Below, in pieces: positions 3,490 through 63,535 of a stretch of 64,000 nucleotides of DNA. The position numbers and the translations under genes were made by a program. Where the stretch lies: NCBI RefSeq assembly GCF_000010725.1, contig NC_013854.1, forward strand, positions 1 to 64,000, read 5' to 3'. The stretch's first letter is position 1. Each line of letters starts with the position of its first letter. Origin of the DNA: Azospirillum sp. B510. GTDB taxonomy: Bacteria > Pseudomonadota > Alphaproteobacteria > Azospirillales > Azospirillaceae. The notes under the pieces are model-generated. The model did no database searches. It was not told the origin of the DNA and was given only the letters and a program-made list of their open reading frames with translations.

Positions 3490-4165
3490 AATCGTTCTCG
3501 ACACCGAAACCACGGGCTTCAAGCCGGAGGAGGGTCACCGGCTGGTCGAGATCGGCTGCATCGAGCTGGTCAATCATCTCGCCACCGGGGAACGCTTCCA
3601 CGTCTATCTCAATCCCGAGCGCGACATGCCGCCGGAGGCCTTCGCCGTCCATGGGTTGAGCGAGGAATTCCTGGCCGACAAGCCGCTGTTCAACGATGTC
3701 GCCGCCGACTTCGTCGCCTTCATCGGCGATTCCCCGCTGGTGATCCACAACGCCGCCTTCGACATGCATTTCCTGAATTGGGAACTGAAGATCGCCGGCT
3801 ATCCGGTGATGCCGAAGGACCGCGCCATCGACACCCTGCTGATGGCCCGGCAGAAATTCCCCGGCTCGCCGGCCACCCTGGACGCGCTGTGCAAGCGTTT
3901 CGGCGTCGACAATTCCAACCGCACCCTGCACGGCGCTTTGCTCGACGCCCAGCTGCTCGCCGAGGTTTATCTGGAGTTGCTGGGCGGCCGGCAGACCGGC
4001 CTGTCCTTCGCCGGCGGCCCGGTGTCGAAAGGCGGGGTCGCCGGCCCGGTCCGCGTCGACCGCCCCTTCCGCGAAGCCCGCGTCTTCGCCGTCAGCGAGG
4101 AGGAGGCCGCCGCCCATGCGGAGATGCTGAAGAAGATCAAGAACCCGCTCTGGGCGGTGGAGTGA
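3482..4165 (+). CDS. dnaQ: DNA polymerase III epsilon subunit (3'-5' proofreading exonuclease)
   Basis: This is the proofreading subunit of the replicative polymerase. The 227-residue product starts MREIVLDTETTGF, so exonuclease motif I (DTETTG) comes immediately after the start. Motif II is NAAFDMHFLNWE and motif III is HGALLDAQLLAEVYLELL, giving the metal-binding acidic residues and general-base histidine of a DEDDh exonuclease. An in-frame extension upstream was rejected because the ATG chosen places motif I at the usual position and overlaps the end of coaE. The C-terminal tail would contact the polymerase subunit. The gene closes the origin-side operon. Confidence 0.95.
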   Translation: MREIVLDTETTGFKPEEGHRLVEIGCIELVNHLATGERFHVYLNPERDMPPEAFAVHGLSEEFLADKPLFNDVAADFVAFIGDSPLVIHNAAFDMHFLNWELKIAGYPVMPKDRAIDTLLMARQKFPGSPATLDALCKRFGVDNSNRTLHGALLDAQLLAEVYLELLGGRQTGLSFAGGPVSKGGVAGPVRVDRPFREARVFAVSEEEAAAHAEMLKKIKNPLWAVE

Positions 4166-4201
4166 AGTGGGGCGGCGATCGCCCCACCCCCACCCCCAAC
4201 C

Positions 4202-5176
4202 TTACGGCACCAGCACCGTCGACCCGGTCGTCGCCCGTGACTCCAGCGCCCGGTGCGCTTCGGCGGTGTCCTTCAGCGCGAAACGCTGGTTGACCGTGAA
4301 GGTCACCCCGCCATTCTTCACCGCGTCGAACAGATCGGCGGCCGAGGCCATCAGATCCTCCCGCTTGGCGGTGTAGGTCGCCAGCGTCGGCCGCGTCACA
4401 TAGAGCGACCCCTTCGCCGCCAGAACCCCCAGATCCAGCGGCGCCGGCTGACCGGAGGCGGCGCCGAACAGCACCATCAGTCCGCGTGGCCGCAGGCAAT
4501 CCAGCCCGCCGAGGAAGGTCGTCTTGCCGACGCCGTCATAGACCACCGGCACGCCCTGCCCGTCCGTCAGCTCCTTCACCCGGGTGACGAAATCCTCACG
4601 GCTGTAGTCGATGGTGTGATGGCAGCCATGGGCCTTGGCCAGCTCGGCCTTCTCCGCCGATCCGACGGTGCCGATCACCGTGGCGCCGAGATGCCGCGCC
4701 CAGGAACACAGCAGCAGCCCGACCCCGCCGGCGGCGGCCTGCACCAGGATGGTGTCGCCGGGCTGCACGACATAGGTGCCGCGCAGCAGATACTGCGCGG
4801 TCAATCCTTGCAGCAGCGTGGCGGCGGTCGCCTCTTCGTCGAGCCAGCTCGGCAGCGGCACCAGCCGGTCGGCGGCGATCAGCCGGCTCTCGGCATAGGC
4901 GCCGATCGCCATGGCGTAGCCGACGCGGTCGCCGATCTTCAGCGTGGTGACGTCCGGCCCCAGCGCCTCGACCACGCCGGATCCCGCCATGCCGATCACC
5001 GCCGGCAGGTTCGGCAGCTTGTAGGCGCCGGAGCGGTGATAGGTGTCGATGTAGTTCAGCCCGACGGCGGTCTGGCGGATGCGCACCTGGCCGGGGCCGG
5101 GCTCGTCCAGCTCGATCTCGTCCCAGCGCAGAACCTCCGGCCCGCCATGTTCGTGGATGCGGATCGCGTGAACCAT
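4202..5176 (-). CDS. Quinone oxidoreductase (NADPH-dependent, zinc-free MDR family)
   Basis: This 324-residue medium-chain dehydrogenase/reductase resembles QorA: MVHAIRIHEHGGPEVLRWDE at the N terminus, NYIDTYHRSGAYKLP, and the nucleotide-binding AAAGGVGLLLCSWARHLGA near residue 150. No structural or catalytic zinc cysteine cluster is present. It is predicted to carry out one-electron reduction of quinones by NADPH in the cytosol. It is the last gene of a minus-strand group with the methyltransferase and DUF255 genes, which suggests stress or repair functions, but shared transcription is only inferred from orientation and short gaps. Confidence 0.88.
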   Translation of the reverse strand: MVHAIRIHEHGGPEVLRWDEIELDEPGPGQVRIRQTAVGLNYIDTYHRSGAYKLPNLPAVIGMAGSGVVEALGPDVTTLKIGDRVGYAMAIGAYAESRLIAADRLVPLPSWLDEEATAATLLQGLTAQYLLRGTYVVQPGDTILVQAAAGGVGLLLCSWARHLGATVIGTVGSAEKAELAKAHGCHHTIDYSREDFVTRVKELTDGQGVPVVYDGVGKTTFLGGLDCLRPRGLMVLFGAASGQPAPLDLGVLAAKGSLYVTRPTLATYTAKREDLMASAADLFDAVKNGGVTFTVNQRFALKDTAEAHRALESRATTGSTVLVP

Positions 5177-51752: not shown

Positions 51753-51826
51753 GCGGGTGTAGCTCAATGGTAGAGCAGAAGCTTCCCAAGCTTACGACGA
51801 GGGTTCGATTCCCTTCACCCGCTCCA
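51753..51826 (+). tRNA. tRNA-Gly (anticodon CCC)
   Basis: The sequence folds as a standard cloverleaf: acceptor GCGGGTG/CACCCGC, D arm GCTC/GAGC, anticodon loop TTCCCAA giving anticodon CCC, T arm GAGGG-TTCGATT-CCCTT, and encoded TCCA end. It reads GGG codons. The integrase gene begins about 130 bases past its 3' end in the same orientation, so this tRNA is the probable insertion site of the element to the right. Confidence 0.95.
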
Positions 51827-51893
51827 AAATTCCCTAGGAAAATCAACGCCTTGCGCGAGTTCCTGGGCTCCTACCCCGAAATATCGTAGACTT

Positions 51894-51937
51894 TTTGGAC
51901 CAGTTTGGACCACCCGCGGTCCGCTGGTGTGGTCCAA
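51894..51937. repeat. Repeated TTTGGACCA motifs before the integrase gene
   Basis: TTTGGACCA occurs at 51894-51902 and 51904-51912, and inverted as TGGTCCAA at 51930-51937, between the tRNA and the integrase ATG. Such arm-type repeats often bind the integrase amino terminus or an excision factor. Confidence 0.5.
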
Positions 51938-51956
51938 TCTGTCTGGGGATCGGGGC

Positions 51957-53060
51957 ATGGCGACGATCGACAAGCGTGGTGACTACCAGTGGCGAGCCCG
52001 TGTCCGCCGCAACGGGAAGTCCGAGACCAAGACCTTCGAGAGCTACGAGGCTGCCCAACGCTGGGCGCTGGAGCTTGAGGGCAAGCTCGTCGGCGATGAG
52101 TACCAGGATCGGCGGCAGGCGCGTGCAACCACCCTCGCGCAGGCGTGCGCCTGGATGGCCGAGCACCTCGACCGGCGGCAGGCCGACACCAAAAACAAGG
52201 TCAGCAAGCTCAACTATTGGCAGGGCAGTGAGTTCGCCGACTGGTCGTTGGTGTCGCTTCGCCCGGCCGACTTGATTCGCTGGCGTCGCCGGGTTCTTGA
52301 TGAGGACGGTGCCGACGATGGCGAGGTTGCCGGGCCGGAAGCTGAGGTTGGGCCGCAGACAGTCGTTCACCGTCTCAACGTCCTGGCGCAGATCTACCAG
52401 CGCTGGTCCTTGGCTCACGACCAAACCCTCAACTGCCCTGTGACCAAGGGCGTGCGCCCCAGCCTGCCCGGCGGGCGGGACAGGCGATTGGATCCCCATC
52501 ATGACGAGGACGGCCACGACGAGGAGGTCCGCCTCCTCGCCGCTGCCGCCAAATCGTCGCGGCCATGGTTGCAGGCGGCGATCGTGATCGCCCTGGAGAC
52601 CTGCATGCGGCAGGCCGAACTTGCGGGGTTGGCGTGGGATCGTGTGCGGCTGGACGCGGCTTACCCTTACGCCGACCTTCTCCGGACCAAGAACGACCGC
52701 CCCCGTCGCGTTCCGCTCTCCGCAAGGGCCGTCGAAGCGTTCGCCAGCCTGCGCCCTGACGGCACCATCGCGGCCATCGGCAAGCGTCCGGTCTTGCCGG
52801 TTGAAACCGGCCGGGGCGTCGCGCATGCTTTCCGCGACGCCGTGTCCGATGCGGAATTCCCTAACCTAAGGTGGCATGATCTGCGGCATGAGGCCATCAG
52901 CAGGTTGTTCGAGAACACCGACCTTCGAGACCACGAGATCATGGCCATCAGCGGGCACCTGCGCCCAGAGATGCTTGCCAGATACACCCATCTTCGGGGT
53001 GATAGACTGGGAGCGAGGTTGCCGGGCGGCAGGCTGCATAGGAAGAGCGGTGAATCATGA
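51957..53060 (+). CDS. Tyrosine-type site-specific integrase
   Basis: This 367-residue phage-type recombinase has an N-terminal AP2-like/arm-binding region (MATIDKRGDYQWRARVRRNGKSETKTFESYEAAQRWALELE) and a core-binding region (LSKLNYW-type helices). In the catalytic domain the arginine is in LETCMRQAELAGLAW, the HxLR box is in WHDLRHEAISRLF, the histidine is in SGHLRPEMLARYTHL and the tyrosine in ARYTH. The ATG follows GGGGATCGGGG. Location beside tRNA-Gly indicates that it integrates the element there. It overlaps the next gene by four bases. Confidence 0.93.
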   Translation: MATIDKRGDYQWRARVRRNGKSETKTFESYEAAQRWALELEGKLVGDEYQDRRQARATTLAQACAWMAEHLDRRQADTKNKVSKLNYWQGSEFADWSLVSLRPADLIRWRRRVLDEDGADDGEVAGPEAEVGPQTVVHRLNVLAQIYQRWSLAHDQTLNCPVTKGVRPSLPGGRDRRLDPHHDEDGHDEEVRLLAAAAKSSRPWLQAAIVIALETCMRQAELAGLAWDRVRLDAAYPYADLLRTKNDRPRRVPLSARAVEAFASLRPDGTIAAIGKRPVLPVETGRGVAHAFRDAVSDAEFPNLRWHDLRHEAISRLFENTDLRDHEIMAISGHLRPEMLARYTHLRGDRLGARLPGGRLHRKSGES

Positions 53061-53671
53061 ATCGCTATTCTTTTGACCTGATCATCAAGCATTCCAATGA
53101 GACATCATTAAAAGTTCGAAAAGAGTTCCGAAAAGAAGTCTCTAACGTTAAAACAATATTTACAGTTCTTGATAATCTCTTTCGAGGGAAGGAGCAGTAT
53201 CCAATAAGTCTACAAAGAAATGTACAGCTTGCACTTATATCAAGATTCACAAACCACATTTTTTCCCTGTTTTTACTTAACGAAAGAGGTTTGATTCTTG
53301 ATGCATTCAACGCATCACGTTCCGCAATAGAGACCACAGCTTTCTATTGGCTGGTCTGTGTGGATCCCGGCGCCGCGAACCTGTACCAAGGAGAAAGAAG
53401 TTTAGCGCCTGTGAAAGTAAGGGAAATGCTAGAGGCTCGAGGAGTAGACGTGAAGGATCTACGAGAGCTCTACAGCCTCGAAAGTGGAATCAGCCACGTC
53501 GGCAACGACTCCGATAATCTCCAAATTAGATGGGAGGAGAAGAAGAGTGGAAAACTTCTGATTGGTGGCAGCTTCGACCCTGAAGTACAGAAGCATATAC
53601 TCAACTCCATACCAGCTATGGCCGCCATGTTCGTCCAGCACGACCCTGACTGCACCGTTACCTATGAATGA
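53057..53671 (+). CDS. Hypothetical AT-rich cargo protein
   Basis: This 204-residue protein has unusually AT-rich codons compared with every neighbour, a sign of recent transfer from a different host. It is soluble, with a central helical segment LALISRFTNHIFSLFLLNERGLILDAFNASRSAIETTAFYWLVCVDPGAANLYQGE. Regularly spaced R/E/N residues there recall DUF5677-like helical proteins, but this is only a resemblance. It is translationally coupled to the integrase (ATGA). It could be a defence or host-interaction gene; no function is claimed. Confidence 0.75.
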   Translation: MNRYSFDLIIKHSNETSLKVRKEFRKEVSNVKTIFTVLDNLFRGKEQYPISLQRNVQLALISRFTNHIFSLFLLNERGLILDAFNASRSAIETTAFYWLVCVDPGAANLYQGERSLAPVKVREMLEARGVDVKDLRELYSLESGISHVGNDSDNLQIRWEEKKSGKLLIGGSFDPEVQKHILNSIPAMAAMFVQHDPDCTVTYE

Positions 53672-53801
53672 CGGGAACCTCCATGGAGGCGCCTTCCTGT
53701 CTATGACTTTGCTGGAATCGCGCTAAGTATTTGACGACGAACAACTTCCTTGCCTACGCCACCATGGCGATCCTACCTTGGGTTGGCGGGTAGCAAGCCA
53801 T

Positions 53802-53870
53802 GTTTTCGCTTCGCGAAAACCGTTGACCACTCCCTGCGGTCGCGGACAACGGCTTGCCCTGCCGGGGGCT
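53802..53870 (+). other. Candidate origin of transfer (oriT)
   Basis: Between the cargo gene and mobC lie a perfect hairpin GTTTTCGC-TTC-GCGAAAAC (53802-53820) and a second inverted pair, CCGTTG (53820-53825) with CAACGG (53847-53852). CTTGCCCTG followed by CCGG begins right after it. IncP-type (MOBP) relaxases nick in YATCCTG/C eight to nine bases past an inverted repeat, so the nick may fall between 53861 and 53862. The position next to mobC and the relaxase supports this; the exact nick is an inference. Confidence 0.42.
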
Positions 53871-53876
53871 CAGGGA

Positions 53877-54263
53877 ATGGATACGCAGCAGCGTCGAGGC
53901 CGAGGCGGTCGCCCCCGCAGCTCCTCCCCACGCACCGCCCAGGTGTCGGTGCGCATCTCCCGCGACGAGCGCGCCCGCCTGGAGGAGGCCGCAGGGCCGC
54001 GCGGCCTCGCCGAGTACCTGCGCGCCGCCGGTCTTCGGCGATCGCCCCGGATCACCCGCAACGTCCCGGCCTTGAACGCGGAGGCGTGGCGCCAGCTGGC
54101 GCCGGTCCTCGCGAACCTCAACCAGTTGGCGCGCGCCGCGAACGAGGGGCGCCTCGTCCCGTCGGCCAAGGTACTGCCGGTGCTGGCCGACCTCGCCGTC
54201 GTTGCGCGCGCGCTGCGGGCCGCCCTGCTGGGGCAGACGGCCGAGGACGAGGACGCGACGTGA
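53877..54263 (+). CDS. mobC: MobC-like relaxosome accessory protein
   Basis: This 128-residue basic protein has a ribbon-helix-helix-like part (TAQVSVRISRDERARLEEAAG) and the MobC signature near the C terminus (LAPVLANLNQLARAANEGRLVPSAKVLPVLADL). MobC proteins help the relaxase open oriT. The ATG follows CTCAGGGA; a longer upstream frame would run through the oriT-like hairpin and is rejected. Its stop overlaps the relaxase GTG by four bases. Confidence 0.85.
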   Translation: MDTQQRRGRGGRPRSSSPRTAQVSVRISRDERARLEEAAGPRGLAEYLRAAGLRRSPRITRNVPALNAEAWRQLAPVLANLNQLARAANEGRLVPSAKVLPVLADLAVVARALRAALLGQTAEDEDAT

Positions 54264-56752
54264 TCGGCAAGCTCACCAAGGGCCGAGGCGCACGTGGCCT
54301 CGCCGAGTACTTGCTCGGTAGCCACGACCACAGCGGTGAGGAACGCCCCCGGGTGGTCGTGCTCGGCGGAACCTTCGCCGGGCAGCCCCCCCGCGAGCTC
54401 TCCCGCGAATTCGGCCAACTGCATGCGCTGCACCCTTCCCTCGGGGTCCACGTGGCCCACGTCAGCTTGCGCGTGCCAACCGACGAGCGCGCCCTCAGCG
54501 ACGAAGAGTGGCACCGGATTGGCGCCAGCTGGGCCGAGGGTATGGGGTTCGATGGATACGTCGTGGTCGGGCACGGAGACCACGTCCACGTCGCCGCCTC
54601 GCGGATCCGGCTCGACGGCTCCGTCGTCTCCGACTCGAACGACTGGGCGAGGAGCGAGGCCATCGTGCGCCGCATCGAGGAGGTGCATGGCCTCCAACGG
54701 GTCGAGGCGTCCCACCTCCTCGAACCCGAGCGCGCGGTCACCCACCGGCGGGCGCCAACCGCCGCAGAAATCGCCATTGCCGAACGGGGCGACACCCCGG
54801 CCGCACAGGTGATCGCCGACGCCATAGCGGCGCAACTTGACCGTGGCCCCATCGCCGCCAGCGACTTCGTGAAGCAGTTGGAGGAGCGAGGCATTGCCGT
54901 CCTGCCGAACCTCTCCACGACCGGCAGGCTCAGCGGATTCGCCTACGAGTTTGAAGGCCACCGCGTGACCGCCAGCGTCATGGGGCGTGGCTTCACTTTG
55001 TCGAACATGACCAAACGAGGGCTGGAGTATGACCCGGACCGAGACCTTGAACCGCTCCGTGCGCTCTGCCGCAGCCGTGCGGACGGAGACCCTGCGCGCC
55101 GAGATGAACGAACTGGAGCAGATGAGCCAGGACGTGGCCGAGGCGCTGAAGGATCTGCAAACGAGCCGGGCGCAGACCGTCGAGGACTTGGCGCGCCAGT
55201 TGGCGCCGCTCGCGGCGGCCATGGCGTCACTGACGGAGGAGACCAGGCGCACGTTGGAGCGCGTGACCCAGCAATCGGCGGCGGGTCATCAGCAGGCAGT
55301 GACAGCGGTCAGGGGCTCGACCCAGGCAGCCCAGCAGGCGGCGGACCAGTTGCGGGCGGGGATGCTGCGGGTAGAGGACCAGACCAGGCGCTTGCTGGAG
55401 GGGCTGCGCGACGCGAGGGAGACGCCGCCGCCCAGCCCGTGGCCCCCGGCGCTGGTGGCGGCCGTGGTGCCGCTGGCGGCGGTCCTGTGGCTCGCGTGGC
55501 GGGTGGGGGTGATGCCGAGCCTGTGATGCTGGAAGGGGACGATGCCGATGCAGCCGGACGATTCCTTCGTCGGTGGGCGGCGGCCGAGCGCCGCAGGCTG
55601 ACCGCCAACGCCACTCGGCAGACGATCACCGGAGAGGGACTGCCGTCCCTGTCTCTGGGGGGCGGGGGCAAATCTGTTGACGCCGGCGAGCGGCGTCAAC
55701 GTCAGCAGAAACCTGAAGAGGAGCGCCGACCAATGCCGCAGCCGACCTGTTCCCCCGCGACTGGCCCGGCCTTGCAGCGCGTGCAGGCCCTCGCCGGGCT
55801 CGTCCCCTCAGGCGACCGCACCCTTGATCAGGTTCGCCGCCAGCTGGCCGCGTTCGGAGCCGAGACCTACGAGTTCCAGCCGTTACCGCCGAAAGGGTCC
55901 GACCTCCCCAAGGAGCGGATCCGCCGGTCCGACGGCGCCGGGGTGGAGCGGTCGCTCGGCTGGCTCAAGCGGATGAACATGCAGGGGTATGACATCTACA
56001 TCCGCCCGGCCGCACCGGACGGGCACGCCGCGCCGTTCGTGTTCGTGGACGACATCGGCAGCGACGTCGTCCAGCGCCTTGAGGCCGACGGGCTGCCCCT
56101 CGCCGTCGGCATCGAGTCCAGCCCCGGCCGTTACCACGGGTGGGTGCGGGTGGGCACCGGCCCCGTGGATCGCGCGGAGGTCACCGAGGCTGCCCGCCTC
56201 GTCGCGCAGCGGTATGGGGGCGACCCCTCGTCCGCGGATTGGCGTCACTACGGCAGGCTCGCCGGGTTCACGAACCGGAAGCCCGAGCGGCGCACCCCAA
56301 GCGGCCAGCCCTTCGCGATGCTCCGGGCAGCCTCGGGCGGCAACGTCGCCCCGGCCGCCGAGAACCTGCTCTCCGACGCCCGGCAGGCGATCGAGTGGGC
56401 CGAGCGCGCCCGCCAGCGAGCCGAGCAGGAGCGTCGGAGCCTCGCTGCCTACCGAGGCGACCGACGCCAGCTGGAAGGCGCTATGGCGGCATTCCTCGAC
56501 GTCCGCGAGAAGGTCCGCACCGCCAAGGAGGGCGACCAGTCGGCCCGAGACTACGGTGCCGCGTTGGCGCTGCTGCGCCGCGGCTACACCGACGAGCAGG
56601 TGGCCGCCGCCATGCGGCAGGCGTCCCCTCATGCAGAACAGCACAGGTCCAGTCGGGATTTCGACTATGCCGAGCACACGGTTGCCAAGGCCCGCCGCAC
56701 CATCGATTCCACGCCCTCGCCTTCGAGGGCGCCCGGACCACGGAGACGATGA
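54260..56752 (+). CDS. mobA: Relaxase fused to RepB-type primase (MobA/RepB)
   Basis: This 830-residue fusion protein has three parts. Residues 1-250 form a relaxase domain (MIGKLTKGRGARGLAEYLL, HVAHVSLRVPTDERALSDEEW, and metal-binding HGDHVHVAASRI) of the MOBP type. Residues 257-422 are a Gly/Ala/Arg-rich linker that is the shadow of another gene. A RepB-type plasmid primase occupies about residues 540-690 (YDIYIRPAAPDGHAAPFVFVDDI, SSPGRYHGWVRVG, DWRHYGRLAGFTNRKP). It should nick oriT, lead the strand and prime replication. The GTG start overlaps mobC. An internal start can yield the primase alone. Confidence 0.9.
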   Translation: MIGKLTKGRGARGLAEYLLGSHDHSGEERPRVVVLGGTFAGQPPRELSREFGQLHALHPSLGVHVAHVSLRVPTDERALSDEEWHRIGASWAEGMGFDGYVVVGHGDHVHVAASRIRLDGSVVSDSNDWARSEAIVRRIEEVHGLQRVEASHLLEPERAVTHRRAPTAAEIAIAERGDTPAAQVIADAIAAQLDRGPIAASDFVKQLEERGIAVLPNLSTTGRLSGFAYEFEGHRVTASVMGRGFTLSNMTKRGLEYDPDRDLEPLRALCRSRADGDPARRDERTGADEPGRGRGAEGSANEPGADRRGLGAPVGAARGGHGVTDGGDQAHVGARDPAIGGGSSAGSDSGQGLDPGSPAGGGPVAGGDAAGRGPDQALAGGAARREGDAAAQPVAPGAGGGRGAAGGGPVARVAGGGDAEPVMLEGDDADAAGRFLRRWAAAERRRLTANATRQTITGEGLPSLSLGGGGKSVDAGERRQRQQKPEEERRPMPQPTCSPATGPALQRVQALAGLVPSGDRTLDQVRRQLAAFGAETYEFQPLPPKGSDLPKERIRRSDGAGVERSLGWLKRMNMQGYDIYIRPAAPDGHAAPFVFVDDIGSDVVQRLEADGLPLAVGIESSPGRYHGWVRVGTGPVDRAEVTEAARLVAQRYGGDPSSADWRHYGRLAGFTNRKPERRTPSGQPFAMLRAASGGNVAPAAENLLSDARQAIEWAERARQRAEQERRSLAAYRGDRRQLEGAMAAFLDVREKVRTAKEGDQSARDYGAALALLRRGYTDEQVAAAMRQASPHAEQHRSSRDFDYAEHTVAKARRTIDSTPSPSRAPGPRRR
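55029..55526 (+). CDS. mobB: MobB-like protein nested in another frame of mobA
   Basis: This 165-residue product is read from a frame shifted relative to the relaxase-primase. It has a long helical, glutamine-rich coiled-coil-like region (EMNELEQMSQDVAEALKDLQ, LEEGLR-type heptads) and a single membrane helix at the C terminus (PPALVAAVVPLAAVLWLAWRVGV). RSF1010 mobB is likewise contained in mobA and has a C-terminal membrane segment. GAGGG precedes the ATG by seven bases. The low-complexity character of the host frame in this stretch argues that this is the frame under protein-level selection. Confidence 0.8.
   Translation: MTRTETLNRSVRSAAAVRTETLRAEMNELEQMSQDVAEALKDLQTSRAQTVEDLARQLAPLAAAMASLTEETRRTLERVTQQSAAGHQQAVTAVRGSTQAAQQAADQLRAGMLRVEDQTRRLLEGLRDARETPPPSPWPPALVAAVVPLAAVLWLAWRVGVMPSL
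55733..56752 (+). CDS. repB: Separate RepB' primase from an internal start (candidate)
   Basis: Inside mobA, in frame, an ATG is preceded by GAAGAGGAG with nine bases spacing, a stronger ribosome site than that of mobA itself. It would give 339 residues covering only the primase domain, comparable to RSF1010 RepB', which is also made from an internal start of mobA. RSF1010 RepB' primes both ssi sites of the vegetative origin. Expression from this start is inferred, not seen. Confidence 0.6.
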   Translation: MPQPTCSPATGPALQRVQALAGLVPSGDRTLDQVRRQLAAFGAETYEFQPLPPKGSDLPKERIRRSDGAGVERSLGWLKRMNMQGYDIYIRPAAPDGHAAPFVFVDDIGSDVVQRLEADGLPLAVGIESSPGRYHGWVRVGTGPVDRAEVTEAARLVAQRYGGDPSSADWRHYGRLAGFTNRKPERRTPSGQPFAMLRAASGGNVAPAAENLLSDARQAIEWAERARQRAEQERRSLAAYRGDRRQLEGAMAAFLDVREKVRTAKEGDQSARDYGAALALLRRGYTDEQVAAAMRQASPHAEQHRSSRDFDYAEHTVAKARRTIDSTPSPSRAPGPRRR

Positions 56753-57552
56753 TGCGCGACGATGACGCCGACGACCTCCCCCCTGAGCACACCCCATACG
56801 CCGACCTGCTGCGTTGGCTGACGCAGCGCCTGGGGCGCCGTCCGACTCTCGCTGAGGTGGCCGAAGTCCGCGCAGCGCAGCGCGAGGCAAGCCGCCGCCG
56901 GGCGCGGAGGGCGCCCCGGCCCACGCTTGGAGGACAGCGGGCGCCCTCCCCCCGGGAGATCGTCCGCGAACTCCTCACCGGCCCGGAGGGCGTGGCCATG
57001 CTGGCCGCCATCGGCATGTTGCCGGTACTGCTGGCAGGGCTGGCGCAGACGCGCCGCCACGACGAATGGCTCACGAGACCGGAGACCGTCCAGCGCCTCG
57101 CCAAGGCCGCCGCCGAAGCGCCTCGGACTCCTCAGTTCGAGCTCCCCATGCGACGCCAGATTGCTGGGCTTCGCGCCTACTTGGAGTGGAAGCTCGGGCT
57201 TGACGACGAACCTGTTCCGGTCGGGTTCATGCCAGCCGAAGTCGAGACCGTGAATCCCAACGTCGCCGCCGCTGTCAACGCAGGGACCGACGATGCTGCC
57301 CGAGCGCTGCTGGCACAGCTGGAGGCCATTTCAGAAAGCGGCGCTCGGCTGATGTTGCGGCGGCTGCGCGACGAGGGCGCCCAGCTGCTCCAGCAATATG
57401 GCGCCTCACTCGGATGGCGGACGGGCGAGCCGCCAATCGGCCTGGTTCAACCGCCGCCTCCACCGCCACTCCCGAGTGAGGCAGAGGAGGACTGGGCAGC
57501 TATCTCGGCAGCCACGGCGCCGACGCCACCGTCTCCAGGCAACCCCCGATGA
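56749..57552 (+). CDS. Hypothetical protein of the mobilization operon
   Basis: This 267-residue protein begins MMRDDDADDLPPEHTPYADLL. It contains a conserved-looking N-terminal block (RWLTQRLGRRPTLAEVAEVRAAQREASRRR), a hydrophobic stretch (GVAMLAAIGMLPVLLAGL, possible membrane helix) and a proline-rich tail (VQPPPPPPLPSEAEEDW). No family is recognised. It overlaps the relaxase-primase stop by four bases and is itself overlapped by the next gene, so it belongs to the mobilization transcript and may be a relaxosome or coupling accessory. Confidence 0.72.
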   Translation: MMRDDDADDLPPEHTPYADLLRWLTQRLGRRPTLAEVAEVRAAQREASRRRARRAPRPTLGGQRAPSPREIVRELLTGPEGVAMLAAIGMLPVLLAGLAQTRRHDEWLTRPETVQRLAKAAAEAPRTPQFELPMRRQIAGLRAYLEWKLGLDDEPVPVGFMPAEVETVNPNVAAAVNAGTDDAARALLAQLEAISESGARLMLRRLRDEGAQLLQQYGASLGWRTGEPPIGLVQPPPPPPLPSEAEEDWAAISAATAPTPPSPGNPR

Positions 57553-57781: not shown

Positions 57782-57957
57782 TGCATATTTCGGCGGAAAG
57801 CACCCAGCGGGAACGGCGGAAAGCGCCCGGGCAGAACGGTGAAAGCGCCCAGCCGTTTCGGTGAATTCGCCCACCCGTAGGAGTGGTGGTATCGGGGTCC
57901 GAACCAGCCTTTGGCATCCCCATGATCTTTCCACGGCACAGGCCAAGGAGGATCGGG

Positions 57958-59472
57958 ATGCCCCGAGCGAGGTCGGACATGCGGCGGATCAGAGAAGTCC
58001 TTCGTCTGCGGGATGAGTTTGGCGCCAGCCAACGGCAGATTGCCGATGCCTGCCGGCTGCCGCGCAGCACCGTGCGCGATTACCTGGAGCGGCTACGGGC
58101 CTCCGGGCTGCAGTACGCGGATGTGCTGGGCTGGACGGACGTCGAGCTGGAGGAGCGGCTGTTCCCGCCTCCGGTCACGTCGGCGCGCCCGGTGCCCGAC
58201 TGGCGGCACATCAGCCGGGAACTCGGCCGCCGTGGCGTAACGCTGCGGCTGCTGTGGGAGGAATACCTGGAGGTCCATCCCGGCGGCTATCGCTACACCC
58301 AATTCGTCCAGCATTTCCGGGCATGGCAGGGTGCTCATGCCGAGCCGCGTCTGCGCCGGGAACATCGGCCGGGGGCGGCGATCGAGGTTGATTACGCTGG
58401 GATGACGCTGACCGTCGGGCTCGGCGCTGAGGCGCGGCAGGCCCAGGTGTTTGTCGCCTGCCTGCCGTATTCGGGCTACGTCTATGCCGAGGCGACCTGG
58501 ACCCAGCAGGCGGAGGAGTGGCTGGCCTCCCACACCCGGCTGTTCGAACATCTGGGCGGCGTGCCGGGCAAGCTGGTGCCGGATAACCTCAAGGTCGGCG
58601 TCAGCCACGCCTCCTTCTACGATCCGGCGATCAACCCGGCTTATCACGATCTCGCCCGGCACTACCGCACCGCCGTCCTGCCGGCCCGGGTGCGGCGCCC
58701 GCGCGACAAGCCCAGCGCCGAGAACGGCGTGCAGCAGGTCGAGCGGCGGGTGCTGGCCCCGCTGCGCGATACGCCCTTCGCCACGCTGGACGCCGCCAAC
58801 GCGGCCTTGCGCGACAAGCTGGCCACCCTCAATGCCGCTCCCTTGAGCCGCCGGCCGCAGGACACGCGCGCCGGCCTGTTCGCCGCCGAGGAGCAGCCGA
58901 CCCTGCGCCCCTTGCCGCCGGACCGCTTCGTGCCGGGCACCTGGGCGCGCCACAAGGTCCCGCCCGACTATCATCTCGCTCTCGACGGCGGCGTCTACTC
59001 GGTGCCCCACACGCTGATCGGCAAGACGGTCGACGTGCACAGCACCGCCGGCGTGATCAGCGTCTTCCTGCGCGGCAAGCGGATGGCCTGCCATGTCCGC
59101 CGGCAGGACGGCGCCACCGTGACGCTGGACGCCCATCGCCCCGCCAACCACCGGGCCGTCGCCCGCTTCACCCCCGATGCCATCCAGACCGAACTGGCCG
59201 CCATCGGCCCGGCCGCCGCGCTGCTGTTCGAACGCATCCTGGCCGGCGCCGATCACCCCGAACAGGCGGTGCGGGCCGGGATCGGCCTGATCCGCTTGGC
59301 GGCCACCCACGGCACCAGCCGGCTGGAGCAAGCCTGCCAGGCGGCGCTGGAGGCCAACGTCGGATCCTACCGCTACGTCCAGCGCTGGTTGACCGCTCCC
59401 CCGGCCACAACGGCGGACGCGGCCGGTGCCGGCGAGCACACCAATCTGCGCGGCCCTTCCTACTATCACTGA
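57958..59472 (+). CDS. istA: IS21-family transposase IstA
   Basis: This 504-residue transposase has an N-terminal helix-turn-helix (EVLRLRDEFGASQRQIADACRLPRSTVRDYLERLRASG). The DDE catalytic core has the three acidic residues in AIEVDYAGMTL, KLVPDNLKVGV and KPSAENGVQQVE. The C-terminal part is typical of IstA (YHLALDGGVYSVPHTLIGKTVDVHST, VDVHSTAGVISVFLRGKRM). AAGGAGGATCGGG precedes the ATG. It acts with the ATPase IstB encoded 10 bases downstream. Confidence 0.96.
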   Translation: MPRARSDMRRIREVLRLRDEFGASQRQIADACRLPRSTVRDYLERLRASGLQYADVLGWTDVELEERLFPPPVTSARPVPDWRHISRELGRRGVTLRLLWEEYLEVHPGGYRYTQFVQHFRAWQGAHAEPRLRREHRPGAAIEVDYAGMTLTVGLGAEARQAQVFVACLPYSGYVYAEATWTQQAEEWLASHTRLFEHLGGVPGKLVPDNLKVGVSHASFYDPAINPAYHDLARHYRTAVLPARVRRPRDKPSAENGVQQVERRVLAPLRDTPFATLDAANAALRDKLATLNAAPLSRRPQDTRAGLFAAEEQPTLRPLPPDRFVPGTWARHKVPPDYHLALDGGVYSVPHTLIGKTVDVHSTAGVISVFLRGKRMACHVRRQDGATVTLDAHRPANHRAVARFTPDAIQTELAAIGPAAALLFERILAGADHPEQAVRAGIGLIRLAATHGTSRLEQACQAALEANVGSYRYVQRWLTAPPATTADAAGAGEHTNLRGPSYYH

Positions 59473-59482
59473 CGGAGATACG

Positions 59483-60238
59483 ATGATGAAGCACGTCAAC
59501 CACGAGCGGCTGCGCCAGTTGCGGCTGTACGGCATGGCCAAGGGGTTGGAGGCGCTGGAACGCCTGCCCGATCGCGGCCAACTGGCCTTCGACGAGCAGT
59601 TGGGCACGCTGATCGAGCGGGAAGCGGCAGAGCGCGCCAACACCGCACTCGCCAGCCGACTGAAACGTGCCCGGCTGCGCCAGACGGCCTGCCTGGAGGA
59701 CCTCGACCTGCGCACCCCGCGTGGGCTCGATCGCGGTGTTGTGCGCGAGCTGGCCACCGGGCGCTGGGTGAAGGAGAACCGGCCGGTTCTGATCACCGGC
59801 CCGACCGGGATCGGCAAGACCTGGCTGGCCTGTGCACTCGGCAACCAGGCGGCGCGGGAAGGCCACAGCGTACTCTACACCCGGCTGACCCGCCTGCTGG
59901 ACGATCTGGCCACCGCCCGCCTGGACGGTTCGCTCGCCCGGCTGCTGCGACGGATCGCCCGGCTCGACCTGCTGATCCTGGATGACTGGGCGATGACCGA
60001 GCTGACCGCGCCTCAGCGCCTGGACCTGATGGAGGTGATCGATGACCGCCACGACCGGGCCGCAACCATGCTGGCCACCCAAGTTCCCGTGGCCAACTGG
60101 CATCGGCTCATCGGCGATGCCACCTACGCCGACGCCATCCTCGACCGCCTCGTGCATCGGGCCTACCGCATCGACCTGCATGGCGACTCCATGCGCCGCA
60201 CCAAGGCCGATGCCGCCAGCGAAACCCCCGACACCTAA
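59483..60238 (+). CDS. istB: IS21 helper ATPase IstB
   Basis: This 251-residue AAA+ protein has Walker A GPTGIGKTW, Walker B LDLLILDDWAM, and the IstB marks LRLYGMAKGLEALER, LGNQAAREGHSVLYTRLTRLLDDL and MLATQVPVANWHRLIGD. It oligomerises to select and shape target DNA for IstA. GGAGATACG precedes the ATG. Both IS genes are intact, so the element is probably still active. Confidence 0.96.
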   Translation: MMKHVNHERLRQLRLYGMAKGLEALERLPDRGQLAFDEQLGTLIEREAAERANTALASRLKRARLRQTACLEDLDLRTPRGLDRGVVRELATGRWVKENRPVLITGPTGIGKTWLACALGNQAAREGHSVLYTRLTRLLDDLATARLDGSLARLLRRIARLDLLILDDWAMTELTAPQRLDLMEVIDDRHDRAATMLATQVPVANWHRLIGDATYADAILDRLVHRAYRIDLHGDSMRRTKADAASETPDT

Positions 60239-60396
60239 GGCCGGTGCTTGGCAACCAAACCCACAACCTTCATAACGTAAATCCAGGGTTCGGCCCCGGC
60301 TCCCACCAGCTTGCAATTCGGGTGGGCGCTTTCGCCGAAACGGTGGGCGCTTTCAACCGAAACGCCTGGGCGAATTCGCCGAAATACGCAGGCACC

Positions 60397-60874
60397 GACC
60401 GATGGCAGCGATCGCCACCCCGGCGGGCTCGCACTGGCGCGCAGCGCGGTCATCATGCTGACCACGGCTGGCGAGCCCACCTGGACGGTCAGGGCCGCCT
60501 ACCACGAGGCGTTTCACTGCGCCGACGATTGGTTGACCCTGGAGGAACGGTGCGTGCTCGACGCCGCCGTGGACCGTGGGCAGGGGTGGCCCACAGCGTA
60601 CCTGCGATCGCGGGTCGAGCGGCGGGCTCGACTGTTCGAAAATTTCGCAATGTACATCGAGGATGGCGGCAGCGTCATTGCGGGACGACGGGTGCCGGAG
60701 GCTGAAATCCTCGCTGCCGTCTACACCGGCGAGATTGGCCGCCGGGTACTGGCGCGTCAGTCTGGCGCCAGCCCTGCGGGCCTCCTCGCTCGACTCCGGC
60801 GTTACTGGCCCTCGCGAGGCACGTCATCAACCACGACCAACAGTTCGTCCGGCCGGAATCCCTCGCTGGAATAG
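60397..60874 (+). pseudogene. 3' part of the IS-split HExxH-motif gene
   Basis: This part continues the frame of the interrupted gene exactly: APTDGSDRHPGG, VRAAYHEAFHCADDWLTLEERCVLDAAVDRG, YLRSRVERRARLFENFAMY, and a serine-rich tail ending PSLE. In the rebuilt 236-residue protein the HEAFH zinc-site-like motif falls at about residues 114-118, with acidic residues nine and ten further on. It could be a metallopeptidase-like element protein, but no family is identified. An AUG (MLTTAGEP) inside it may still allow a shortened product. Confidence 0.78.
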
Positions 60875-61014: not shown

Positions 61015-61037
61015 GCCCTGCTCCATCTTCGAGGGGC

Positions 61038-61165
61038 GACACCCGCCCTCCCCTCCGGGGAGGGGGAGAAAATCAGGGCCGCCCAGGTCCGGGCGAGATG
61101 GTGCTCACCGTGCGCGTGGTCGGCAAGGTCCTTTCTCTCCCTCCCCGGAGGGGAGGGCGGGTGTC
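61038..61165. repeat. Long inverted repeat with nested hairpins (possible ssiA/ssiB)
   Basis: A 34-bp arm (61038-61071) is repeated inverted at 61132-61165 with two mismatches around a 60-bp spacer. Each arm contains its own perfect eight-base stem: CCCTCCCC-TCC-GGGGAGGG on the left and CCCTCCCC-GGA-GGGGAGGG on the right. In IncQ plasmids, two oppositely oriented hairpin sites, ssiA and ssiB, are used by RepB to prime each strand next to the iterons. That fits, but similar GC palindromes occur in the host chromosome. Confidence 0.5.
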
Positions 61166-61255
61166 ACCTCCGGTTGCTGCGACTGCAAGGAGCAGCAGTT
61201 CCCTGCCAGCAAGCCGCCGACCGCGCGCCCAGCGCGGGCGGGGGCGTAGGAGATT

Positions 61256-61370
61256 TTAGTATCTCCTAGTAATGGACCGAATCTCGATTTTATATCAGTA
61301 GGTTACGAGCAACTGTGACGGCAAAACGACACGGGTGCGCGGGCAATTCGACACGGGTGCGCGGGCAAAA
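61256..61370. other. Candidate IncQ-like vegetative origin (iterons and AT-rich element)
   Basis: Two exact 20-bp repeats, CGACACGGGTGCGCGGGCAA at 61327-61346 and 61349-61368, follow with a 22-bp period. A degenerate third unit precedes them (61305-61326, keeping TGNGNNGGCAA). An AT-rich run (61256-61303) lies next to them and the end of repC only five bases away. IncQ origins combine 20-22-bp iterons, an AT-rich melting region and flanking ssi hairpins, all found here within 340 bases. Confidence 0.68.
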
Positions 61371-61375
61371 CATCA

Positions 61376-62251
61376 CTACCGCCGCCTTGGCCGAGGGGCG
61401 CGACGGACGGTCACGATCGACCGCAGGTTCTCGTCGGCCGACCAGCCCGGCAGGCCCGCGACCTCGGCGAGGGCGGCACGCAGAATGACCCGCCGGTCAC
61501 GGCGCTGACGGTCCGATGTCGGGGGCTCACCGTACAAGCGGTCAGCGAGGCCGTCCAGCGCGACAGGCCAGTAGCCGCCGGGTCTGACCTGCACCGAGAG
61601 GGTGAGGTGCAGCAAGCGCCCGGCCTCGGTCAGCTGCCTGTGCTCCAGCAGGTTGATGCGGCTGTGTTGGGCTCCTCCGAGGACGGCTGTCGCGAACCGG
61701 GCGTTGAGCACCACCCGGAGTTCCCCTCCGACCTCGTCGGCGTCGAACCCGATGAGGTTCTGCCGGGCGCCCGACTTCATCCGCCGAGCGTTACCACCCT
61801 CCCGGCCGAGCTCGGCGTAGTGGATCCCCCGAAGCCGCCAGAGAGACTCTGCGACGCGACGATACGCATCCCCTCCATGGGCCAGCCCGGCCTCTCTGAC
61901 GACTGCGTAGACGGTTGTCCGGAGCCTGACGTGCTCGTCATCGACTACCCCGCCCTCCGTCTCCAGCCCGTCCACGATGGCGATCCGGTGAGCCTCGCTG
62001 TGTGCCGCGTCCAACCGCTTGCCATCCATGCCCGCGAGGGCACAGACGGCGAGCAGCACCGACAGGTCGTCGGCGCCCAGGACAGGGCCACCGACGCGGA
62101 GAACGGCGCCACCGTGGGTGGTCGTCAGGTCGAGGTGGCGGTTTCGGGCCGCCGTCCTCCCCCGCCGCGGTAGCGGCCGGAAAAGCGGCAGCCCCATGAG
62201 CCCGGTGTCCACAAGGGCATACTCAGTCAACGTGAGGCGGGTGTCAGGCAT
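61376..62251 (-). CDS. repC: IncQ-type replication initiator RepC
   Basis: This 291-residue protein is close in size to RSF1010 RepC (283). Segments resembling it are LGADDLSVLLAVCALAG, GELRVVLNARFATAVLGGAQHSRINL and TEAGRLLHLTLSVQVRPGG. RepC binds the iterons and melts oriV. The ATG follows GGGAGCGGGATT and overlaps the end of repA by eight bases, as expected for the repA-repC unit. The family call is from recalled sequence similarity; an alignment would settle it. Confidence 0.82.
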   Translation of the reverse strand: MPDTRLTLTEYALVDTGLMGLPLFRPLPRRGRTAARNRHLDLTTTHGGAVLRVGGPVLGADDLSVLLAVCALAGMDGKRLDAAHSEAHRIAIVDGLETEGGVVDDEHVRLRTTVYAVVREAGLAHGGDAYRRVAESLWRLRGIHYAELGREGGNARRMKSGARQNLIGFDADEVGGELRVVLNARFATAVLGGAQHSRINLLEHRQLTEAGRLLHLTLSVQVRPGGYWPVALDGLADRLYGEPPTSDRQRRDRRVILRAALAEVAGLPGWSADENLRSIVTVRRAPRPRRR

Positions 62252-63206
62252 AATCCCGCTCCCGCTTCTTCTTGCCGCCGTTGCCCTCGCGGGGGAGCGG
62301 TGGATCTCTTCCTTCGAGCACACCCCCAGCTTCGCGGTACAGCCATTGGTCCGCTTGCGGGGGGGCGTAGTTGACCTTGGTCAGCGCGAATCGCACCCAA
62401 CGCCGCCGCTCTTCCGGTGCGATGTTGCGCGCCTCGGCATCGTCGGCCGACATCGTGACGAGATTGCTCTGCCATCGTGCGTTGTCGGTGATCGCCGAGG
62501 CTCCCCGCGCAGCTTGCTGATGGTCGCCTTGTCCGCCGAGGGACGCCGACTTGCTGGTGTGATGGAGCACGAGCCCGGCCGCACCGCACGCAGCGAGGAT
62601 ACGCTCCAACTCGGCGAGCACCCGCCCCATGGCTGCGTTATCGTTTTCAGACAGCCCCGCCAAACACCGGTTCATTGTGTCGATTGTCACCAGCCGAGCG
62701 CGTAGCTCCATGAGTTCCTGCTCCAACGTGAGCAGGTCCTCACTGGCCGTGAACCGGGTGCCGTTCCATTCCCCGAAGGAGAAGCCCCGGCCGTACACGC
62801 TCTTGATGCGGAGCCGGGCCAGCACTTCGGGATCCGACAGAAGACCAGGGACGGCAGCGGCCACCGAATGGAGCCGGTGGGCCAGAATGTCGGGCGGGTC
62901 CTCCGCGTTGACGATGACGACCGTGCCAACCGGCGGGTGCTCGCCATACAAGCCCCAGAAGTCGCGTCCGGCGGCAATGCTGATGGCCGTCTGAAGCGCG
63001 AGCATCGACTTGCCTGCGCCGCCGGGGCTTACCAGCATGCCCAGCGTTCCGACCAGCAAGCCCGGCACCACGAAGTCCAGTTCCGTGGGGTGACGGGAGA
63101 GGATCGCTGACACGTCCAAGTAGTCGGCGAACAGCTGGCGCGGAGGCAGGAGGAGATCGTCCTCCGCCTCCACGGTCAGCGCGGAGAGCATGGAGGGGCG
63201 CCTCAC
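62244..63206 (-). CDS. repA: IncQ-type replicative helicase RepA
   Basis: This 320-residue RecA-fold protein has Walker A in GTLGMLVSPGGAGKSMLALQ, which closely resembles RSF1010 RepA, then VVIVNAEDPPDILAHRLHSV, Walker B-like RLVTIDTMNRC, VLHHTSKSA, GDHQQAARGASAITDNARWQSNL and RFALTKVNYAPPQADQWL. RepA is the hexameric helicase of IncQ plasmids. I took the GTG that overlaps the upstream gene by four bases; an ATG five codons later (63191) with GAGG upstream is equally possible. Confidence 0.87.
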   Translation of the reverse strand: MRRPSMLSALTVEAEDDLLLPPRQLFADYLDVSAILSRHPTELDFVVPGLLVGTLGMLVSPGGAGKSMLALQTAISIAAGRDFWGLYGEHPPVGTVVIVNAEDPPDILAHRLHSVAAAVPGLLSDPEVLARLRIKSVYGRGFSFGEWNGTRFTASEDLLTLEQELMELRARLVTIDTMNRCLAGLSENDNAAMGRVLAELERILAACGAAGLVLHHTSKSASLGGQGDHQQAARGASAITDNARWQSNLVTMSADDAEARNIAPEERRRWVRFALTKVNYAPPQADQWLYREAGGVLEGRDPPLPREGNGGKKKRERDYA

Positions 63207-63535
63207 GAAGCACCCCCCACACCCAGCATGGCGGCAGATTCCGGATCCCAGAGCCAGAGCCCTGCCGCGACGTGAATCCAGTCCTCGTCGCTCCACAGTA
63301 CGTGCCCGTGGATGACGAGGATGACACCGGGATCCGCAGCCTCGAAATCGACGCGGACGCTCTCGGGGCAGGAGGGTCCCTTTGCCCCAAGAGCCGCCAC
63401 GAGGCGACCGGACGCCTCACGCGCCGTTGCGCGAGCGGTAAAGTAGCTTTCGTCCGGCGAAGAGGCAAAAATGAACACACGAGCGGTGTCAAAGGAATCC
63501 AGATGACCCGTCGCCGTCAGCTTGGGGCGAGCCAT
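63203..63535 (-). CDS. Hypothetical protein of the rep operon (110 residues)
   Basis: The product reads MARPKLTATGHLDSFDTARV then a mixed fold ending VLWSDEDWIHVAAGLWLWDPESAAMLGVGGAS. It has no recognised domain. Its stop overlaps repA by four bases and its start is three bases after the AlpA-like gene, so it is part of the regulator-repA-repC transcript. It stands where small rep-operon genes (E, F) lie in RSF1010, but no sequence likeness is claimed. Confidence 0.7.
   Translation of the reverse strand: MARPKLTATGHLDSFDTARVFIFASSPDESYFTARATAREASGRLVAALGAKGPSCPESVRVDFEAADPGVILVIHGHVLWSDEDWIHVAAGLWLWDPESAAMLGVGGAS

Follow-up and report, generated by a model that had tools for sequence, protein, structure and literature searches.

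The window analysed here comprises 64,000 nucleotides of Azospirillum sp. B510 (NC_013854.1, positions 1 to 64,000, forward strand) and contains mobA-repB, a gene for a relaxase fused to a primase, with a predicted mobB gene nested in a second reading frame. With good confidence, the locus can be read as the transfer-replication gene of an integrative mobilizable element, 12.46 kb long, with a replicon of the incompatibility group Q (IncQ) type. Its features are as follows.

54260-56752, plus strand: mobA-repB, MOBP-type relaxase and RepB primase (PF03432, PF16793, PF22448)
55029-55526, plus strand, +1 frame: mobB, coiled coil with a C-terminal hydrophobic helix (PF17511, hhalign, codon-position test)
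55733-56752, plus strand: putative internal start for a free primase RepB' (AGGAG, spacer 9)

The mobA-repB frame is open throughout and encodes 830 residues; it begins with GTG at 54260, overlapping the TGA of the mobC-like gene, and its stop ends at 56752. Pfam places the relaxase PF03432 at residues 33-145 (63.2 bits), RepB_primase PF16793 at residues 568-685 (74.4 bits) and RepB_primase_C PF22448 at residues 759-811 (44.5 bits), all in a single frame, which bears out the relaxase-primase fusion proposed in the initial annotation. The proposed MOBP type also stands, as PF03432 was matched and PF03389, the family of the RSF1010-type control relaxase, was not listed; MOB-suite likewise assigns the relatives pGXY040 and pGNB2 to MOBP. 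Within the overlap with mobB the mobA frame has 27% Gly and 11% Arg and lacks a hydrophobic segment, which fits the earlier description of this linker as an out-of-frame shadow. An NCBIfam scan of six proteins gave none over the cut-off. An LPD7 domain precedes the primase in L002 (MobA residues 455-519) and in pTC-F14 (453-526); none is listed for the window protein.

A PF03432-type relaxase, a nested frame and RepB occur in the same layout in L002, a metagenome-assembled genome, and the layout recurs in the plasmids NZ_CP027855 from Plesiomonas and NZ_OQ821182 from Serratia (L003 and L004), in pGXY040 from Komagataeibacter (L011) and in genome G392 (L012/L024); two of the three public plasmids bear the annotation "IncQ-type MobB". 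A nested frame is found at the same place in pGNB2 (L008), in the closely related pWES-1 (L029) and in a plasmid from Aestuarium (L007), where the relaxase has 395 residues and ends 24 residues past the nested gene. The nested open reading frame (ORF) with coiled coil and membrane helix lies at 4454-5134 in pGNB2 and at 3925-4605 in pWES-1, where it is labelled as a hypothetical protein.

The +1 frame at 55029-55526 is open and codes for 165 amino acids. Its product matches Mobilization_B (PF17511) in Pfam with 28.0 bits (curated cut-off 27), none of ten shuffled versions matched, and the nested proteins of L003 and L004 score 50 bits for the same family. When the nested protein was compared with plasmids by tblastn, no match was obtained at an E-value of 0.01, so profile searches were required: in hhalign, a profile built from the proteins of the window, L002 and L024 matched RSF1010-type MobB plus L003/L004 with a probability of 98.5 (E-value 3.8e-15) and RSF1010-type MobB alone with a probability of 80 (E-value 1.4e-5). 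The segments PSPWPPA and LAWR are invariant in the three closest nested proteins. The top 19-residue Kyte-Doolittle mean at the C-terminus is 2.06, against 0.60 (standard deviation 0.32) for frames from 2000 synonymous resamplings of mobA codons, with stops counted as Gly.

The substitution pattern was analysed on DNA alignments built ignoring the reading frame; differences were tallied by mobA codon position and compared between the flanks and the overlap by chi-square, with sites treated as independent. L028 was left out, as its relaxase start pattern was not found and its nested frame continued to the limit of the sequence fetched. For L003/L004, the differences at mobA positions 1, 2 and 3 numbered 70, 66 and 188 in the flanks and 57, 32 and 36 in the overlap (p = 2.6e-8); the corresponding figures were 181, 148 and 275 against 74, 67 and 53 for window/L002 (p = 3.7e-5); 194, 170 and 281 against 69, 65 and 59 for window/L024 (p = 0.0051); 191, 157 and 273 against 87, 83 and 62 for L002/L024 (p = 1.9e-5); and 8, 4 and 31 against 6, 15 and 9 for L008/L029 (p = 2.1e-4). 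Hence the third mobA position, the most changed in the flanks, is no longer so in the overlap in any of the five pairs, and the difference between positions 1 and 3 within the overlap alone is significant in three of them. The codon-position check proposed in the initial annotation thus revealed a frame switch in every pair, and not selection confined to the mobA frame.

Several observations weigh against the assignment to MobB. The window protein is barely above the PF17511 cut-off, its close relative from L002 falls under it with 17.0 bits, and no PF17511 match is listed at an E-value of 0.01 for the nested proteins of L012/L024, L007, L008 and L011. In the codon test, three of the five pairs have sequences in common, the window/L024 result is only moderate (position 1 against 3 in the overlap, p = 0.29, besides the flank-overlap value given above), and the same comparison for L008/L029 is not significant (p = 0.6). 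The length of the open frame was rejected as evidence for mobB, since the +1 frame stays open in 8288 of 20000 synonymous resamplings of mobA codons. The same proportion (41%) speaks for the alternative that the nested ORF is an untranslated chance frame in GC-rich DNA; the PF17511 match, which none of the ten shuffled versions gave, the hhalign matches, the frame switch and the two invariant segments make this alternative hardly credible. Judged by these comparisons, 55029-55526 encodes MobB and is under selection, and the mobB-like coiled-coil protein with a C-terminal membrane helix described previously is upheld by PF17511, hhalign, the codon-position test and hydrophobicity.

In each of the nine MOBP genes found whose nested ORF is intact (window, L002, L003, L004, L007, L008, L011, L012/L024 and L029), the mobB ATG lies across a conserved Tyr codon and the codon following it, always at an offset of +1; the residue after the Tyr is Asp or Glu in eight of these and Val in L011. 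In the RSF1010-type control (L005, pSCBC2-9, IncQ1/MOBQ) the nested frame is likewise +1, with a different start motif. As the mobB start lies across a Tyr codon conserved in the relaxase, one synonymous substitution there can abolish MobB without altering the relaxase. In a MOBP relaxase gene on a plasmid of the cyanobacterium Leptolyngbya (L073), over main-frame residues 223-507, the +1 frame is in two pieces separated by one stop: the coiled coil, which starts from the same Tyr-Asp codons, and the membrane helix after the stop. No MobB-like nested frame was found in the PF03432-type homologues L006 and L009 from Sulfitobacter (frames of at least 100 residues) or L072 from Nostoc (frames of at least 90 residues), and in L074 from Sulfitobacter indolifex other +1 frames are present, none of them MobB-like by eye.

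The weakest of the earlier claims concerns an internal start at which the primase alone, RepB', would be released. The site itself is strong: the ATG at 55733, residue 492 of the fusion, is preceded by AGGAG with a 9-nucleotide spacer, and at the same junction L002, one of the two closest relatives, has an ATG with AAGGAGG and a spacer of 5. It is not shared throughout, as no ATG ahead of the L024 primase has a good ribosome site, and no strong combination of ATG and ribosome site was found there in L003, L004 and L011. By the same scoring the primase start of the RSF1010-type control is itself weak (GGTG, spacer 5), so that a start may exist in spite of a weak score. From sequence, a free RepB' is rather likely in the window element and is not a general property of such genes. 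That the primase works solely as a relaxase fusion, with no free RepB', is a lesser but real possibility: it is in keeping with the relatives lacking a good or strong site, and whether IncQ fusions yield one or two polypeptides was left unsettled by earlier studies, according to excerpts of PMC7557826 (articles given by PMC number are cited here and below for excerpts of their text). The good site common to the window and L002 argues for a free RepB', as do the weakly scoring RSF1010-type start and the treatment of RSF1010 RepB' as a separate ORF or domain in PMC5572225 and PMC2200642.

The initial annotation had not seen mobA-repB as part of an integrated IncQ-like element. The element occupies 12.46 kb in a tRNA-Gly gene, between direct repeats 12,460 bp apart that are identical over 48 bp. 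In all four relatives fetched, out of 45 same-genus genomes searched, the site is empty: an intact tRNA-Gly runs without a break into the left flank on one side and the right flank on the other. The remaining features of the element are listed below.

51781-51828, plus strand: attL, 48 bp, 3' part of tRNA-Gly(ccc), whose gene is 51753-51826 (repeat)
51927-53060, plus strand: tyrosine integrase (PF00589, 63.2 bits)
53057-53671, plus strand: ORF of the element (no Pfam match over the cut-off)
53793-53820, plus strand: putative origin of transfer (oriT)-like block GCAAGC[ACT]ATGTT with a hairpin, 5' of mobC (motif and fold)
53877-54263, plus strand: mobC/nikA-like relaxosome gene (PF21983 NikA-like, 35.9 bits)
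56749-57552, plus strand: ORF starting with ATGATG across the mobA-repB stop (longer reading, 56140-57552, without a Pfam match over the cut-off)
57782-60390, plus strand: IS21-family insertion sequence (IS), istA 57883-59472 and istB 59426-60238 (PF22483, PF01695, terminal repeats; ends approximate, set by eye)
60311-60874, plus strand: ORF listed from TTG (60359-60871 in Pfam, no families)
61035-61168, no strand: two opposed hairpins, 61035-61071 and 61132-61168, resembling single-strand initiation (ssi) sites, putative priming sites for RepB (alignment, folds)
61320-61371, no strand: iterons with a 22-bp period, 2.4 copies, putative RepC sites of the replication origin oriV (repeat search, beside repC)
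61376-62323, minus strand: repC, IncQ-type initiator (PF06504, 79.2 bits, cut-off 22.8)
62244-63296, minus strand: repA-like helicase, AAA_25 ATPase, adjoining repC (PF13481, 126.7 bits; a family broader than IncQ RepA)
64241-64288 of contig C1, just past the window end: attR, second 48-bp copy (repeat search)

The mobC-like ORF is listed from TTG at 53778, and the ATG at 53877 is the likelier start. A later start is likely for the ORF at 60311-60874 too, because the IS ends near 60390. Next to the mob module, a protein with a YHExFH motif is encoded both here (60311-60874) and in L024 (5117-5725), the similarity being judged by eye. The oriT-like block is present in a single copy in each of the window, L002, L003, L004, L006, L007 and L024; in L006 it is found at position 4605 ahead of a small pre-relaxase gene, yet there is no nested MobB. 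No mating-channel gene was recognised among the element ORFs that were read, not every ORF having been searched.

Reading away from repC, the iterons are followed by an AT-rich stretch and by the two opposed hairpin copies, each then followed by GAGAAA. RSF1010 has two single-strand initiation sites on opposite strands. Arrays of 22 bp are also present in four IncQ-type control plasmids and in L002, which has a similar opposed hairpin pair. Fold z-scores of the hairpins range from -0.6 to -1.8 against shuffles. Their role as priming sites is made less certain by the window hairpins folding only slightly better than shuffles (z = -1.3) and by the IncQ-type controls, where, in the stretches searched, long opposed arms are weak in L005 (24 nucleotides, 71%) and absent in L027.

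A second element of this kind was found in L002, where ORFs indicate an integrase, mobC, mobA-mobB-repB, repC and repA, over 10.6 kb between 45-bp repeats 10,620 bp apart. In L024 the mob module is located beside recombinase-like ORFs. Against a constant link with the replicon, L024 has the relaxase, MobB and primase, and no repA or repC was recognised by eye in the 19 kb fetched; the mob part thus does not need the replicon. A search of the class with PF06504 also reported no RepC for G392.

Counts of the individual families include the window's own genome. PF16793 was found in 1 of 21 relatives, 10 of 385 genomes of the class and 23 of 398 genomes of the phylum, PF06504 in 3 of the 385 class genomes, and PF17511 in 1 of 82 genomes of the order and 1 of 385 of the class, namely the window alone, the latter being a lower bound, as the MobB of G392 was not reported by the search. 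The full layout was seen in two class genomes of the 385, those of the window and G392. Accordingly, the earlier statement that this layout is rarely preserved with a MOBP relaxase holds within the class, and fails in so far as the layout is already on public plasmids. A motif scan of the PF16793 loci L030-L052 and L013-L022, covering about 1.5 kb on each side with a motif that misses the RSF1010 and Leptolyngbya forms, gave no further relaxase with a nested MobB, and a pattern-based search of a viral collection gave no relative. In a two-contig 5.1-Mb genome of the class, the RepC match at G052:C1:2643000-2643815 (L053) scores 515.8 bits, far above that of the window, and is probably a copy close to RSF1010 RepC.

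Alternatively, the element could be an integrated IncQ-like plasmid that has become a dead relic. The single mobA-repB copy in the genome would agree with that, and the IS21 copy within the element counts against a functional one; this copy, however, is situated between ORFs or on the border of one, the recognised genes are all open, the two att copies agree at all 48 bp, and L002 holds a second member with the same gene set at a different site. We consider a relic unlikely and favour an integrative mobilizable element.

Beyond the observed anatomy, homologies, nested-frame selection and precise insertion, the gene content suggests how excision, transfer and replication might proceed. The integrase would excise the element as a circle, and MobA with MobC would nick the oriT-like block near 53793. 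MobB, bound to the inner membrane via its C-terminal helix, could help the relaxase to reach the type IV secretion channel of a helper element; in R1162, transport signals of the relaxase-primase reportedly require MobB, going by the title of work by Parker and Meyer from 2007. The relaxase-primase would enter the recipient with the strand and prime the complement at the ssi sites, after which RepA, RepC and RepB, perhaps together with free RepB' from 55733, may replicate the circle transiently until reintegration. With a putative oriT and a relaxase, primase, predicted helicase and initiator of its own, such an element should require just the channel of the helper, and would be a clean system for asking why transfer and replication priming are fused.

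With some reserve, we lean towards the view that these elements represent an undescribed family in Pseudomonadota of integrase-bearing IncQ-type strand-displacement replicons with mobB overprinted on a MOBP relaxase. More widely, mobB would be an old overprinted gene, its start fixed by a conserved Tyr (mostly in Tyr-Asp/Glu), occurring with or without the primase, from Leptolyngbya, where it is split by one stop, to IncQ-3 plasmids, where it is unnamed.

Among known systems, RSF1010/R1162 (IncQ-1, represented by L005) has the same gene-in-gene layout (PMC2200642) and shares the relaxase-primase fusion, the +1 nested mobB, the MobB family, RepA (repA-like in the window), RepC and the 22-bp iteron array; it differs in its PF03389 (MOBQ) relaxase, against PF03432 here, and in being a free plasmid, against an element integrated in tRNA-Gly. 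The Plesiomonas and Serratia plasmids have the nested MobB, the RepB fusion, mobC just upstream, the oriT-like block and a PF03432 relaxase (L003 by Pfam, L004 by its 75% identity to L003), but are free and carry other annotated replication genes (trfA in L004, "replication protein" in L003). The 4.8-kb plasmid pGXY040 is similar in its fusion of a MOBP relaxase with RepB, its nested coiled coil with a membrane helix, RepA (repA-like in the window), RepC and 22-bp iterons; unlike the window element it is free, its nested protein has no PF17511 match and the oriT-like block was not found there. Fusions of MOBP relaxases with RepB have been published for IncQ-2 (pTC-F14) and IncP-6 (Rms149) plasmids (PMC12375680, PMC4785139), and that of pTC-F14 (L027) was also seen in Pfam; in contrast to the window, pTC-F14 has no MobB-like nested frame (frames of at least 90 residues, by eye), and the gene called mobB in that plasmid is a separate one. 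Plasmid pGNB2, placed in IncQ-3 by PMC7557826, has a MOBP relaxase and a nested +1 ORF with coiled coil and membrane helix at the same start, whereas its MobA lacks PF16793. Excerpts of that article name only mobA and mobC for the plasmid, without the word mobB; the nested frame suggests that IncQ-3 plasmids carry a MobB-like gene.

Nested proteins of MOBP and MOBQ genes might be of independent origin, alike just as coiled coils with a membrane helix. In keeping with this, the pGNB2-type protein matches the window group weakly (hhalign probability 51, E-value 1.5e-4), that of pGXY040 matches no family at an E-value of 0.01, and the RSF1010-type relaxase domain has no significant match to these MOBP relaxases (best E-value 2.2). 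The proteins of L003 and L004, with their 50-bit PF17511 scores, nevertheless link the window group to RSF1010-type MobB in hhalign, which makes separate origins quite unlikely.

Given that three public plasmids already have the nested layout and that IncQ-2 and IncP-6 provide known cases of MOBP-RepB fusion, the gene-in-gene layout with a MOBP relaxase is not new. The component parts are likewise known, and their integrated IncQ-type combination is, as far as our searches go, undescribed: no account of an element that is integrated, has an IncQ-type replicon and carries a MOBP-MobB-RepB gene of its own was found in the literature searched, outside which lay most subscription papers and two IncQ reviews. 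The nearest integrated elements carrying rep genes are GIsul2, which has RepA and RepC, and SGI1, which has a replication initiator and whose plasmid-like replication is the subject of PMC7826253; unlike the window element, neither is listed with its own relaxase in excerpts of PMC5704250, which stated in 2017 that the elements described from Proteobacteria include none of the canonical type, which would have a relaxase of its own but lack secretion parts. In the Azospirillum element, the compact IncQ relaxase-MobB-primase gene is joined to an integrated lifestyle.

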